From assembly GCA_945873065.1 (NCBI GenBank), contig CAMCBN010000001.1, positions 1 through 64,000 of the forward strand: a stretch of DNA of 64,000 nt, read 5' to 3'. The notes beneath the pieces were generated by a model. The model was not told the DNA's origin, did no database searches, and saw only the letters and a program-made list of their open reading frames with translations. Position numbers and translations under genes: made by a program. The DNA is from an uncultured Candidatus Saccharibacteria bacterium. GTDB lineage: Bacteria; Patescibacteriota; Saccharimonadia; Saccharimonadales; Saccharimonadaceae. Of this stretch, positions 43,268 through 59,638 are shown piece after piece; position 1 is the stretch's first letter, and the number at the start of each line of letters is the position of its first letter.

Positions 43268-43398
43268 AGATGCTTCCCTTACGTGGGAAGCGTCTATACT
43301 CAAAATAGACTGACGATGATTATTGCACAACTAAATTGTTAAGATTCAACGATCTAACTGCTACCGATGTTTATCTTTCGCAACCAGAACTAGAACTA

Positions 43399-51173: not shown

Positions 51174-54100
51174 CTATCGCAGTCTGATCGATACTTCTTT
51201 TGGATCATTCGCCGAATTATCATGCGTGTTGAAATTCCCCATTTGCTGCAGTTCTGGCAACCCATCATCCTTTCTCAGGGGTGCTCGACCGGTCTGGCTA
51301 TCAATTGGTGATTGAGACGATGGGGTTGCCTGCTGTACCGCAGCACGAGCTTGATCGATCGTCTGCAGTGTCGAGCCCTGTTGACGCGAAGCTGGTAATG
51401 GGTCTCGTGCGGGTTGCATCGGGCGTAAGGGTTGTTGTTGAAGCGATTTCGCGGCTGGAGATGTTAAGGGAGAAGCTGGCGCTCCCTGCATCACCGAAGA
51501 TGGAACAGCTGGCCGTGGCGGATAGCTGCTCGGTGGTACGGATGGTACGCCAGTCGGGGCTTGCTGTGATACATTAGGCAGGTTACGGTCCAAAGTGCCT
51601 GTCGTATTGACCGGAGGACGTGACTGCACCTGTCCCGGCCGGGGCAATGGCTGAGACGAAGTTTGTGGTTGCGCCACCGCTCCCTTGGTAGCTGTTTGTT
51701 TCGCCTTTATCTGACGACGCTGAGCCAACCATTCATCAAGAAATGACGACTTATTATCATTACCACCCCTGACAGGTCGGCTAGCACTCGGACGACCAGC
51801 CGGCTGTTGTACCGATATCCGCGCAGCGATTTCTCGCTCAACCTGTGCTCGCGGTTTACCATACTTGGCAGCCGAAAGACGACGCAAAGCATCAGCCAAC
51901 TGAGCATTTGGTTGTCCCATCGGTGGCACCCAAGCCATACTAAATGGCGTCGATGGCGTACCATTGATTTGCGCCACACAAACCGACTCGAAGTTCGGCA
52001 GCTTCGTCAGGTCTTCCGCATCAAATACTGGCGTATACCGCTTCACCATGATGTCAGCATCAGTAGTACCGATACGCCCAGTAATAGTCGTACCAACATT
52101 ACCGAGGATCGCCTCACGCAACTCTTCCTTGAGCTGCGTCATGAACTGATTTGCCAGCACCAAACTCAAACGATACTTACGCGCCTCACTCAGGATCGTT
52201 TCGAAGCTATCAGTAGCGAAGTTTTGGAACTCATCTACATATAATGTGAAATCTTTACGCTCTTCCTCGGGGATACTGGCTCGCGCCATAGCTGCTGCCT
52301 GAAATTTCATCACGAAGATAATACCGAGTAACTTCGAATTTAGATCGCCTAGGCGCCCCTTCGACAAGTTAACTAATAGAATTTTGTTGTTATTCATGAT
52401 ATCTGGAAAACTGAGCCCGCTCTTAGTCTGACCGATGATATTGCGCATCGTATCATTGCTAATAAATGGACCAAATTTTGATACCACCCAGCTAATGACA
52501 TCGCCCGCCTCATTGGAGCGCTGCGATGCCGGAAACTCCTTCGTCCAAAAGTCGAGCACCTGCTGATCAGTAATGTACTTGATTTTACTATTACGGAATT
52601 GTTCGTCGACCAATAATTTTGGAATATCGACGAACGTTCCCCCGGCTGGATCGCTCATCAATAGCAAAGCACAGTTGCGGAAAATATGCTCAAGGCGCGG
52701 CCCCACGATGCCTGTGTGGCCAGGGTCATACAAACCATATAGCATACTGATAGCCTCTTGCACCAAGAAATCTTTTTGGTCGGGATCGTCAAACTCAAAC
52801 ATATTCAATCCGATCGGATTGGTCATATCACCTGGGTCAAAATATACGATATCCTCAGACCTCTCACGTGGCACCTTGGCTAGCAATGATTCTGCCAAGT
52901 CACCATGTGGGTCTACCAACGCAAACCCACGACCCGACATCATATCCTGGTATGCCAAATTTTCTTGTAACACCGACTTACCCACACCAGTCTGTCCAAT
53001 GATGTGAATATGACGACGTCGATCTTTATCGCTCAAACGAATCGGCTTGCGCACACCACGAAATTCATTGTATCCAAGCAACAATCCTGTATCCATCACC
53101 TCTGTCGGGCCATCGACCTGTTTACTCATTTGGCGTTTCACCTGTGATGTAGGAATGCTGTTTTGGTCTGGTAAGTGAAAGATTGTCGCAAGTTCAACCG
53201 AATTTAAAATGTTACGATTCATCGACTGAGGAAAGAGTCGGAAAATGAAAGCTGTTGTCAATTCGTCAATATTACTCGACAAGTGAAACTTAAATCCATT
53301 AAAGCTCGGTGAATCAAACAACGCAAATGCCGACACCACGTTTTTCAATAGCACCTGCGACCGTGCCGCAGTATTCGACGAAACCACTACCCGAATCAAC
53401 ACCTCATACCCGGGGTAACGAATTTTTTCTTGGATAGCATCTACCTTCGCTTGATCGACAGCACTGATAGGCTTATCTTGGGTGATATCTTTCTTGTCGG
53501 GAGTCTCTGGTGGTTTCCACAACGCTTGCATAATATCGCGTGCTGCTGCACCGCCCTTACTGCCCTTCTTTTCGCCTTTATTCTTAACGATCTGATCCGC
53601 CGCAGAAATCGACTGCTTGGTCCATTTTTCGTTAGCTGGCCGAATCAACAATTGGATACCGATACCATCTTCACGCCCCGCCGCAGAAATTGCGTTCAAC
53701 AGAGCTCGTGAAGCATCACGCTTGGACTCCATATACGTCGAAATAGGATAAATGAATTCCTTACGCAAAGTGAACTCACCACCGATAGTGCCACTCGCCT
53801 TGCCGACCTTACTAAACACTGAATGCTCAGCTACTTCCTCAAGCCTTGCCGACGGATATGCTGCAGCGATCGCCTGGCGAATTGTATCGGTCAACACCGT
53901 TGGTACTACCGCGTAGTAGTACACCAACCCCTCGCGAGCAACGATCTCAAAAGAAATATGCCGCTGCCCATAAATCTTACTCATGAACCCCTTGGTGCTA
54001 GTACTGGCGATGATACTATACATCACTTGCGCCTGCGAAAGAACTTCCTCGGTCAAATCACGCTTATCACGACCACCCCCGTCAACATCATCACTAGCCG

Positions 54101-54257
54101 GCGGTAAATGAATGAGGATCGGTACCATTTTTAGTCCACGCTCGTAATTTTTTGCCTCGCGCATACTATTGCGATAAACGATAAATACCACAAAAAGTAT
54201 CACCAAAATAGCACCGGCAACACCAAAAATAATGATCAATGTCGTGATCATATTCAT
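51174..54257 (-). CDS. type IV secretion / conjugative-type ATPase (TraD/VirD4-like)
   Basis: A 1027-aa protein. One N-terminal membrane helix (about 4-28) is followed by a domain of unknown function (about 60-340), then a P-loop ATPase: Walker A IIGQTGVGKSVLQ near 432, LVDPHGDLAE, Walker B FTLYVDEFQNFA near 680, and LVLANQF. The last 230 residues are low-complexity Pro, Gln and Ser. The ATPase core resembles VirD4/TraD and HerA-like pumps that move DNA or protein. No relaxase or other channel genes are beside it, so it may power pili, DNA uptake or secretion. Its ATG overlaps the stop of the upstream gene (ATGA). Confidence 0.85.
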   Translation of the reverse strand: MNMITTLIIIFGVAGAILVILFVVFIVYRNSMREAKNYERGLKMVPILIHLPPASDDVDGGGRDKRDLTEEVLSQAQVMYSIIASTSTKGFMSKIYGQRHISFEIVAREGLVYYYAVVPTVLTDTIRQAIAAAYPSARLEEVAEHSVFSKVGKASGTIGGEFTLRKEFIYPISTYMESKRDASRALLNAISAAGREDGIGIQLLIRPANEKWTKQSISAADQIVKNKGEKKGSKGGAAARDIMQALWKPPETPDKKDITQDKPISAVDQAKVDAIQEKIRYPGYEVLIRVVVSSNTAARSQVLLKNVVSAFALFDSPSFNGFKFHLSSNIDELTTAFIFRLFPQSMNRNILNSVELATIFHLPDQNSIPTSQVKRQMSKQVDGPTEVMDTGLLLGYNEFRGVRKPIRLSDKDRRRHIHIIGQTGVGKSVLQENLAYQDMMSGRGFALVDPHGDLAESLLAKVPRERSEDIVYFDPGDMTNPIGLNMFEFDDPDQKDFLVQEAISMLYGLYDPGHTGIVGPRLEHIFRNCALLLMSDPAGGTFVDIPKLLVDEQFRNSKIKYITDQQVLDFWTKEFPASQRSNEAGDVISWVVSKFGPFISNDTMRNIIGQTKSGLSFPDIMNNNKILLVNLSKGRLGDLNSKLLGIIFVMKFQAAAMARASIPEEERKDFTLYVDEFQNFATDSFETILSEARKYRLSLVLANQFMTQLKEELREAILGNVGTTITGRIGTTDADIMVKRYTPVFDAEDLTKLPNFESVCVAQINGTPSTPFSMAWVPPMGQPNAQLADALRRLSAAKYGKPRAQVEREIAARISVQQPAGRPSASRPVRGGNDNKSSFLDEWLAQRRQIKAKQTATKGAVAQPQTSSQPLPRPGQVQSRPPVNTTGTLDRNLPNVSQQAPTGVPSVPPSSYPPRPAVPSSVMQGAPASPLTSPAAKSLQQQPLRPMQPARDPLPASRQQGSTLQTIDQARAAVQQATPSSQSPIDSQTGRAPLRKDDGLPELQQMGNFNTHDNSANDPKEVSIRLR

Positions 54258-54676
54258 ACCTCGTCGACCTCGCCAATCTGTCGCCCGTACCGTTCACGTA
54301 TATATGTACGACGCAACTCACTGATTTGCCGCTCGCGCTCATGCGGATCGCCTTCTGTCTCCCTGATGATCTGTTTCGCACGATTCACCCATTCGCTTTC
54401 GATCAAATCTTCATCAGCGGCCGTTACTGGCGCATTCACAGAGCCTTGTGGCTGTGATGGCGCAGGTATAACGGTAGTCGGCACAGCTGGTAGTGTCAAC
54501 CCCTGTGCTATCACTGGTGACAGCTCACGTCCACTTGATTGCTCGCCATGACGCTCTGGACTCACTACCGGCAAACGCTCCATGCCTGGTGCGGCTGGCA
54601 TCTGATAGATATTAGGGTTGGATGGTGCCCGAAGTTGCTCAGGCGAATTATTAAATCGTGGCTGTTGTGGTCCCAT
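54254..54676 (-). CDS. small protein coupled to the type IV-like ATPase
   Basis: A 140-aa hydrophilic protein. The first 85 residues are Pro/Gln/Ser-rich and probably disordered; the last 50 (DLIESEWVNRAKQIIRETEG, then ERQISELRRTYIRERYG) form charged helices. I do not recognise a named family. The 4-base overlap with the ATPase gene suggests a partner or adaptor of that ATPase. Confidence 0.65.
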   Translation of the reverse strand: MGPQQPRFNNSPEQLRAPSNPNIYQMPAAPGMERLPVVSPERHGEQSSGRELSPVIAQGLTLPAVPTTVIPAPSQPQGSVNAPVTAADEDLIESEWVNRAKQIIRETEGDPHERERQISELRRTYIRERYGRQIGEVDEV

Positions 54677-54761
54677 AACTATGTCCTAAATTATACCATA
54701 AGCGATGCCTAGGTAATAGTATCACAGACATAGTACTTTGCAGCTGCCCCAGCCACCAGTG

Positions 54762-55136
54762 CTATCGCCTGGCTATATACAAGCAAGCTACTATCTCGAA
54801 TACGACGACTAGAGCTACATCGTACCAACCACTTCGCCCGACCGAATGTGCGCCCACTAACAGTACTGGAGCCAACCCCAATACCGACCCAAAATAATAA
54901 CAATGACGAAAGTCGAGATTCACCTTGCGGTATTGCGTATCGGCCACCCACCGGCGAAGTACCAGTGAGATCGCAGCCAGCACATACGTTATGACACTCA
55001 CTATCACCAAATACATCAAAAAAAAGACAAACAATATTCCCAAGGGATGTATAGTGGCTGGTGTGGTGTTATTCAGCAAAAATATCAACATGACAGCTGC
55101 TGCAACACCAATGACGAGAAGACCTTTCTTCGACAT
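54762..55136 (-). CDS. small membrane protein, 124 aa
   Basis: Three to four hydrophobic segments (about 5-22, 30-58, 76-92, 103-120) with RRWVADTQYRKVNLDFRH in the middle loop. Family not recognised. The ATG at 55136 is chosen because TATAAT (complement 55143-55148) ends 6 bases before it, giving a leaderless mRNA; a GTG 33 bases upstream would precede the promoter. It heads the leftward unit with the ATPase genes. Confidence 0.6.
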   Translation of the reverse strand: MSKKGLLVIGVAAAVMLIFLLNNTTPATIHPLGILFVFFLMYLVIVSVITYVLAAISLVLRRWVADTQYRKVNLDFRHCYYFGSVLGLAPVLLVGAHSVGRSGWYDVALVVVFEIVACLYIARR

Positions 55137-55156: not shown

Positions 55157-55462
55157 TGATGTTGACCAAAAGCTATCGTCAGTTGGTCCTCTCTAGGAAG
55201 GAGCCCCAGCGGGCACACGAAGCGCAGGCGCTTATCACGTCCTCTTATTATTATATTTTTAGGACATGTGGTGACCCGCTGTGGGCCGATCGTCGCCCCA
55301 CGGATGGAGCGAGTGCGGCGGCTGTCAACCGACATACGATGTATAAATCGGGAGCCATGCCGCTCGCTACGACGCCAAGGGGATTGGCGGAGCGTAGGCA
55401 GTGCCATTTGCACGAAAACGTGCGCGTGTCGCTGCCTAATACCCGCCAATCTAGCGTCTTTT
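55157..55462 (+). ncRNA. candidate large structured RNA, about 300 nt
   Basis: This GC-rich island in AT-rich surroundings is full of nested pairings. CCAGCGGG (near 55210) pairs with CCCGCTGTGG (near 55278) and encloses AAGCGC-AGG-CGCTT and ACGTCCT with AGGACATGT. AGCGAG pairs with CTCGCT around CGGC/GCCG, GGCT/AGCC and CCGA/TCGG. Last, GACGC pairs with GCGTC around ATTGGCGG/CCGCCAAT, GGCAG/CTGCC and GCACG/CGTGC, a long rod with symmetric internal loops, directly followed by TTTT. TATACT at 55145-55150 could be the -10 box. Strand is inferred from the terminal T run. It is not tmRNA, RNase P or SRP RNA as I know them. Confidence 0.6.
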
Positions 55463-55686
55463 ATAGTTTGTATAGTTTAAGCTTTTTCGACAGTTTGATG
55501 TTTGTGTTTATAAAAGCTTAATTTTAGGTTAGCATAAGCATTGATTAATGTCAATATATTATCAAATTTACCTCTGTTTTTTTATATATTTCTCGATAAT
55601 TATTACATCACCATCCAATGTGATCGTGTCGTAATTTTTGCACCATTGCTGTGGTATTTTTTACGCAAAAATCTCGCTCAAAATCG

Positions 55687-55715
55687 TTGACACAAGCAGT
55701 TTTGTCCCATATCAT
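55687..55715 (+). promoter_or_regulatory. promoter of the 97-nt unit
   Basis: TTGACA, 17 bases, TATCAT: one of the closest matches to consensus in the window. Confidence 0.65.
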
Positions 55716-55721
55716 AAGGAT

Positions 55722-55818
55722 AGCTTCTGAATAAAAAAATTATGCAGGAGCCAAAAATAAACATCGCACCAAAACTCCACGTATAAAAACGACCACTACT
55801 CGCAGGTGGTCGTTTTTT
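55722..55818 (+). ncRNA. candidate small RNA or leader, about 97 nt
   Basis: The transcript from the promoter at 55687 would end at a strong terminator: AAAACGACCAC with GTGGTCGTTTT at 55786-55816, then TTC. The only frame is 14 codons (MQEPKINIAPKLHV) starting at 55742, without a good ribosome-binding site. It could be a small RNA or encode a very small peptide. Confidence 0.5.
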
Positions 55819-55892
55819 CTCGCTAACAACACGAACTATACGATCGAAACTTCGCAGTTATGTTCTGATTTTGTTCAGTGCGAACTTTATTC

Positions 55893-55938: not shown

Positions 55939-56342
55939 TGGTGGAGCTGCCGGGTACTGCCCCCGGGTCCGCTCGGTGCGACTGTATTCGTCTACAGATA
56001 TAGGCTTATTTAATAGATTTTATAACGCCAGATAGCTCACAAATAAGCCAAAAATACTATCTATCGTTACGCGGTAACCGTCCTTGACTGTCGCCGCTGC
56101 CAACAATCAAGCAAGCAACAAACGTATGTCACCCAAGCCAGACCTGTTGCCGATTCGACCTAAGCGATCGCTCAAAATTTACGCAGCGATTGGAGCCAAC
56201 GCAGGCGTCGAGCGGAAGATTTCGCTCAAGCTGCGCAAGCTGGTTGCAACTTTAGATTTTGCAGTTATTATGTGCGTGACGTGCACAATCGATCCGCAGA
56301 ATACATTCACAAAGTCCGAACGTCGAACGCTATTTCAGCCCC
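55939..56342 (-). ncRNA. ssrA: transfer-messenger RNA
   Basis: The 5' end GGGGCTGAAATAGCGTTCGA and the 3' end GGACCCGGGG-CAG-TACCCGGCAGCTCCACCA (in parts) form the tRNA-like half with an encoded CCA; GGGGCTG pairs with CAGCTCC. The tag frame starts at GCA (56262-56260) after CATAATAACT and runs 27 codons to TAA at 56179, ending ALAPIAA. The length of about 404 nt is normal. An extended -10 box (GTGATATACT, complement near 56357) precedes it. tmRNA rescues stalled ribosomes and marks proteins for proteolysis. Confidence 0.93.
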
Positions 56343-59236: not shown

Positions 59237-59267
59237 ATATAAAGACACCCATCTCTGGGTGTCTTTA
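59234..59267 (-). terminator. terminator of RNase P RNA
   Basis: AAAGACACCC and GGGTGTCTTT form a 10-bp stem around a 6-base loop; on the minus strand TATAT follows. Confidence 0.8.
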
Positions 59268-59269
59268 CG

Positions 59270-59638
59270 GTCAGCCTATCGATAAGCCGGGTTCTGTCGT
59301 GGATGATCATCTATCTAGTTTGCAAATTGCTTTGCAAATCAAGCGGTTAGCGGTAGCTCATGCGGATCACATACCAGAACTACCTCCTTGCAGCCAACAG
59401 GGTTTACCTCCACCGTATGTCACCATACAGTGCTGTGAGCTCTTACCTCACTCCTTTCACCCTTACCCCGCTGCTAGCCGTATATAACACACGAGCCAAA
59501 CAATGGTATTCTGCGGAGCGGTATCGTTTCTGTGGCACTTTCCCTAGGGTCACCCCCGGTCGCCGTTAGCGACTGTCGTATCCTGTGCTGCCCGGACTTT
59601 CCTCTTGCTCGCAAGCAAGCGATCATCTAATAGACTGC
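59270..59638 (-). ncRNA. rnpB: RNase P RNA, bacterial type A-like
   Basis: The minus strand carries the conserved GAGGAAAGTCCGGGC near its 5' end, GGGTGACCCTAGGGAAAGTGCCACAGAAA in the middle (in parts), and GATAAGCCGGGTTCTGTC near the 3' end. CAGTCTAT pairs with ATAGGCTG to form P1. The extended -10 box GTGATATAAT lies just upstream (complement 59645-59650). It matures tRNA 5' ends. The end points are accurate to about 5 bases. Confidence 0.94.

Follow-up and report, generated by a model that had tools for sequence, protein, structure and literature searches.

The closest known parallel to the locus analysed here is the OLE RNA of Bacillota, a structured noncoding RNA of ~600 nt that binds OapA at the membrane; OapA, for which four membrane helices are predicted, is a small membrane protein, and its gene usually lies immediately downstream of that for the RNA (PMC12265935). 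Another is the raiA motif RNA, or ModT (RF03072), described from Bacillota and Actinomycetota (PMC11706538): like the RNA reported here it is conserved, folds into several helices, stands alone and has an ill-defined biochemical function. The present locus lies in a 64,000-nt stretch of contig CAMCBN010000001.1 from an uncultured Candidatus Saccharibacteria bacterium, referred to below as the window. The alignments and promoter scans that follow show a predicted RNA with a promoter of its own, a 5' hairpin, a P1/P2 rod, a hairpin (H3) and a 3' domain; it is conserved in the order, where the gene that comes after it encodes a small membrane protein.

The segment 55157-55462 had been singled out as a structured RNA on the plus strand. 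Its predicted folding energy is -129.4 kcal/mol on that strand (z -4.6 vs shuffled sequence) and -133.6 kcal/mol on the minus strand (z -6.6): the fold is real and far from chance. The predicted minus-strand transcript, 55519-55185, gives z -7.0 against shuffles. We place the RNA on the minus strand on the strength of the conserved upstream promoter found there, the excess of G-U over A-C in paired columns when read on that strand (45 G-U cells vs 16 A-C cells, one column alone holding nine of the latter) and the strand common to the tmRNA and the downstream gene. The 3' end first proposed was also wrong, as it probably lies near 55185 (-), and the extent was too short at the other side, where the RNA locus also takes in the promoter and a 5' leader of ~60 nt. 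Both ends of the transcript, 55520 and 55185, are deduced, the latter with less certainty, and would give an RNA of ~335 bases. The stems originally described are present: the rod, a middle stem, the H3 hairpin and a long P6 stem enclosing two others. The rod does carry symmetric mismatches, but the TTTT at which it was thought to end belongs to the plus strand, and so has no part in an RNA encoded on the minus strand.

Features of the RNA locus, with window coordinates and the basis on which each was assigned.
Feature	Coordinates	Strand	Basis
Promoter, TTGACA-N17-TAACCT	55554-55526	-	read from the sequence; conserved across relatives
Structured noncoding RNA, predicted transcript	~55520 to 55185	-	fold z -7.0 and same-place homologues in relatives
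5' terminal hairpin, UUAAGCUUUU / AAAAGCUUAA, A-rich loop	55477..55521	-	sequence; motif in relatives
P1/P2 rod, symmetric mismatches	55371..55458	-	P2 complementarity test and conserved GCUCCGCC
Middle helix, P4 position	55309..55367	-	predicted fold; relatives show compensatory changes by eye
Hairpin H3, in relatives AUGCYCC..GGAGCGGUCAGU	55294..55311	-	helix 1 of covariation alignments
3' domain, P6 and inner helices	55202..55287	-	covariation alignments, models R1/R2
Partner gene, 124-residue membrane protein	54762..55136	-	homologues follow the RNA

The promoter consists of a -35 hexamer, TTGACA (55554-55549), a 17-nt spacer and an extended -10, TGC-TAACCT, ending at 55526. When 50 loci of the order were scanned, the best promoter at the same place had a 17-nt spacer in 42 and an extended TG in 38, and these counts are lower bounds because the scan takes a false site in some loci. 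A leader motif, CUUAACAAU, is present exactly in 13 of 30 family loci (0.4% of shuffles) and within one mismatch in six further ones; it is absent from the window's own copy of the RNA. The CUUAACAAU/AUCUUAACAAUUUA motif resembles the rrn boxA of E. coli. The 16S rRNA leader in the window, 43331-43345 (-), has a boxA-like UCUUAACAAUUUAG containing the same core, AUCUUAACAAUUUA, as the RNA leaders. Family members may therefore use rRNA-type antitermination when transcribing the RNA.

Apart from the sequence itself, a DNA search with the window sequence gave no more than a 24-nt match in a single relative; this match sits at the equivalent place, between the tmRNA and the small protein gene. Homologues were reached via gene order and structure. 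Homologues of the small membrane protein occur in 11 of 13 genomes of the genus, and at all 11 loci the segment upstream of its gene folds into a similar RNA, with tmRNA linked in ten cases and on another contig in the eleventh; the two genomes lacking a protein match also gave no match to the RNA. Two models were built: R1, of 111 positions, from the genus, and R2, of 94 positions, from the family. With R1 the RNA is found in at least 61 of 394 family genomes; of 393 genomes and 156 genera of the order, R2 detects it in at least 166 and 86, respectively. The match is nearly always single per genome. These counts are minimum values, since the strict filters applied in large searches make R2 pass over the copy in the window, which scores 22.7 bits without them. 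Candidatus Saccharibacteria bacterium 47-87 has a locus with both RNA and protein. In this family the RNA measures ~320-460 nt at loci with a sound promoter call; in other families of the order it is compact, mostly ~135-225 nt.

Beyond the order, a phylum-wide sample yielded only two matches. One of these (G707, locus L157) has no membrane-protein ORF nearby and was taken as chance; the other, in G604, precedes the gene for a distant homologue of the membrane protein. The G604 protein was then searched for in relatives of that genome and R2 applied to the loci found, giving matches shortly upstream of the protein gene in G604, G639 and G652, which represent two families outside the order. These matches are weak (E 0.0002 to 0.003 in 87 kb) and consistent in place and strand, and share the outer stem, the asymmetric inner loop and the A/U-rich apical loop. 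Many protein homologues outside the order have no recognisable RNA upstream. In one family outside the order (loci L160-L163) a conserved hairpin with a C-rich loop, CACUCCCCCCAGUG, is seen upstream of the RNA matches or of the same protein gene. Taken by gene order and model matches, the putative RNA is not a local feature: it is order-wide and tied to a single membrane-protein gene.

Plain MAFFT alignments left the strands of helices out of register. For the 3' domain (H3, P6, inner helices and A/U-rich loop) we therefore used a manual alignment padded with N, a procedure that favours the structure. Ten genus sequences treated in this way have 97.5% of cells paired and 20 of 29 pairs changed on both sides, with a covariation of 0.593 vs 0.185 in shuffles; for 29 family sequences the corresponding values are 96.0%, 21 of 27, and 0.607 vs 0.168, with slid versions of the alignment nowhere near. 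Because hand alignment is guided by structure and hence biased, we carried out two further tests, one with unseen sequences and one an unbiased measure of P2 complementarity. The unseen set, 21 order-level sequences from outside the model building, nearly all of other families and aligned by the model, has 94.8% of cells paired, 21 of 27 pairs changed on both sides and a covariation of 0.429 vs 0.138 shuffled. For P2, we took the 12-nt segment found at a set distance ahead of GCUCYGYC and measured it against every upstream position: across 28 loci, comprising 25 distinct 5' strands, the Fisher combined p is ~5e-22, an optimistic figure because related sequences are not independent. A combined P2/P4 alignment fell out of register.

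Details of the parts vary among members. At 28 of 50 loci, vs ~1% of shuffles, the A-rich ACAAAAACAAAA (≤1 mismatch) is found 5' of H3; it is degenerate in the window's own 5' hairpin. Within the P1/P2 rod, GCUCCGCC (55393-55386, -) is present in all 11 genus homologues, and the same region could form an alternative hairpin, CGCCAA/UUGGCG. The P4 helix is shortened in the window and in the genome G012, and longer in other members. In H3, the U-A pair of columns 5 and 18 is replaced by an unpaired C-A in nine of 29 family members. The apical loop of the 3' domain, 55261-55243 (-), is A/U-rich; this loop and GGUCAGU are conserved and unpaired, and many family members have an exposed GCACCUU. Of two further pairings considered by eye, one between leader and apical loop proved inconsistent across members and was dropped, and a candidate CCUUG/CAAGG pseudoknot is found mainly within the genus.

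Rfam 15 recognised tmRNA, RNase P, rRNA genes and three tRNAs in the window, and gave no match to the RNA there or in relatives. It is this lack of a match, together with very strong covariation at genus, family and order level, that upholds the original prediction of an unknown large structured RNA. The exclusions made at the same time also stand: tmRNA occupies a separate gene, 55939-56342 (-), and the new RNA lacks the tRNA-like end and tag and has no RF00023 match; RNase P lies at 59267-59638 (-); and the RNA has neither a match to SRP RNA models nor a domain IV motif. The tmRNA scores 80.4 bits with Rfam and was missed by ARAGORN. The covariance models for OLE RNA (Rfam 15) and RF03072 likewise found nothing in the window or relatives. 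Two hits were set aside: the purD RNA motif (RF01069) matched the rod on the opposite strand at 24.2 bits, under its 41-bit gathering score, and was taken as chance; an isrD match, obtained with permissive settings, fell below threshold. A search of the open literature turned up neither an account of an RNA of this kind nor a survey of noncoding RNAs in Saccharibacteria. On these comparisons we have very little doubt that the predicted RNA represents a new family of stand-alone structured noncoding RNAs.

A further candidate RNA lies nearby. The region 55687-55822 (+), divergent from the main RNA, could encode a small RNA of ~100 nt (z -6.4), with a promoter, TTGACA-N17-TATCAT, a 5' hairpin, CAAAAAUAAACA and an intrinsic terminator. 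It has no Rfam match. This layout is repeated in G012 (L044), in L087 and, in other families, in L138, L141 and L142, with the motif in the form CAAAAACAAAAAC that the main RNA has in its 5' hairpin.

The membrane-protein gene is a constant neighbour of the RNA in the order. A protein of ~110-130 residues follows the RNA in all 51 loci examined in the genus, family and order, in one of them (L144) at a distance of ~550 nt. AlphaFold2 models it as four long helices (pLDDT 88.9); it belongs to no Pfam or NCBIfam family, and a PDB fold search gave no match at E ≤ 0.001. By hhalign, the protein of the family is homologous to that of the order (98.8%) and probably also to its counterpart outside (91%). 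In the window it heads a minus-strand block (51174-55136) of membrane protein, 140-residue protein (hp140) and VirD4/TraG-type ATPase that is kept across the order. Outside the order the genes after the protein look like pheS, pheT and gyrB; since the following genes differ in this way, the RNA-protein pair is kept in two gene settings. The protein gene of the window has a -10 of its own, TATAAT (55148-55143, -), directly before the ATG, and -10-like sequences are found immediately 5' of the ATG in most family loci, while in many other loci of the order terminator-like hairpins can be seen by eye between RNA and gene. From these two features it appears that RNA and protein gene are probably separate transcription units.

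This arrangement bears directly on what the RNA might do. Were it a cis-acting leader, a riboswitch or attenuator of the membrane-protein/hp140/VirD4-type ATPase operon, its constant place ahead of the protein gene, in the same orientation, would be explained, and the two competing pairings visible in the window and G012 could supply the switch, for example with CCGCCAA pairing either to an upstream UUGGCGG or to a downstream UUGGCG. The -10 immediately before the protein start in most family loci, the intervening terminator-like hairpins in many order loci, and the distance of the gene in L144 all speak against such a leader, which we regard as distinctly unlikely. A trans-acting RNA, binding mRNAs through its exposed motifs or sequestering a protein without any direct tie to the neighbour, fits the separate promoter, the conservation of unpaired elements, among them GGUCAGU and the A/U-rich loop, and the leader's resemblance to rrn boxA. 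It leaves unexplained why the membrane protein should remain the neighbour in two gene settings, and one of the motifs, GCACCUU, is missing by eye from the compact forms in other families; we judge such a role unlikely.

That the RNA is a very divergent form of SRP RNA or 6S RNA was considered since neither was found in the genome to which the window belongs: two Rfam models detected no SRP RNA in the whole genome, the domain IV pattern CAGG-loop-GGAA-AGCAG is absent from it with ≤1 mismatch allowed, and the 6S model matched neither the genome nor the locus. These absences are weak evidence because the models also miss known examples, the 6S model finding 5 and the large SRP model 6 of 14 control genomes. 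The resemblance to SRP RNA and 6S RNA is the general one of stand-alone structured RNAs; nothing like the SRP domain IV loop is seen in the RNA, and its several domains differ from the single long rod with central bubble of 6S RNA. Identity with either seems very improbable. As for a GC-rich DNA element full of inverted repeats, or mere chance, the locus is indeed a GC-rich stretch amid AT-rich surroundings, but covariation far above controls, the excess of G-U over A-C on one strand and a promoter at a fixed place make this scarcely credible.

The mechanism we favour is suggested by the pairing of RNA and membrane-protein gene, which recalls OLE RNA with OapA. The RNA would be strongly transcribed, as its near-consensus promoter and, in many members, the boxA-like leader suggest, the latter hinting at rRNA-type antitermination; it would fold into a stable particle and serve as the RNA component of a complex that the neighbouring four-helix protein anchors at the membrane. 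The particle's task might be sensing, secretion or contact with the host bacterium. Against a membrane complex, linkage within the order could be explained by the conserved operon of membrane protein, hp140 and ATPase, and R2, itself insensitive, detects the RNA in a minority of order genomes; the many protein homologues beyond the order that lack a recognisable RNA, and the weakness of the matches there, also count against it. We give the explanation as a whole, a new RNA family acting as a membrane complex with the neighbouring protein, just short of an even chance, and the membrane mechanism by itself a slightly lower one. More tentative still is the broader reading in which the RNA is an old family of Patescibacteria (Candidate Phyla Radiation) that forms a membrane RNP with a dedicated protein, a second, independent case of the OLE type. 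A structured RNA that spans an order and keeps one membrane-protein neighbour is a candidate core component of episymbiotic bacteria, and as cultured Saccharibacteria are genetically transformable (PMC10633639) its role can be tested.

Among known systems, the rRNA operon leader shares with family members the boxA-like motif, the body of the RNA being unrelated. OLE RNA has a similar arrangement: the candidate RNA here, like OLE RNA, precedes the gene for a small membrane protein predicted to have four helices. The two differ in size (~140-460 nt here vs ~600) and in phylum, and the new RNA has no Rfam match; nor does the partner protein share a Pfam match with OapA. The RNA family is unrelated to any in Rfam, and the mode of action proposed for it is of a known kind. 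If the RNA does act at the membrane, the OLE/OapA arrangement has arisen more than once, and would extend to bacteria whose habitat is the surface of other bacterial cells.
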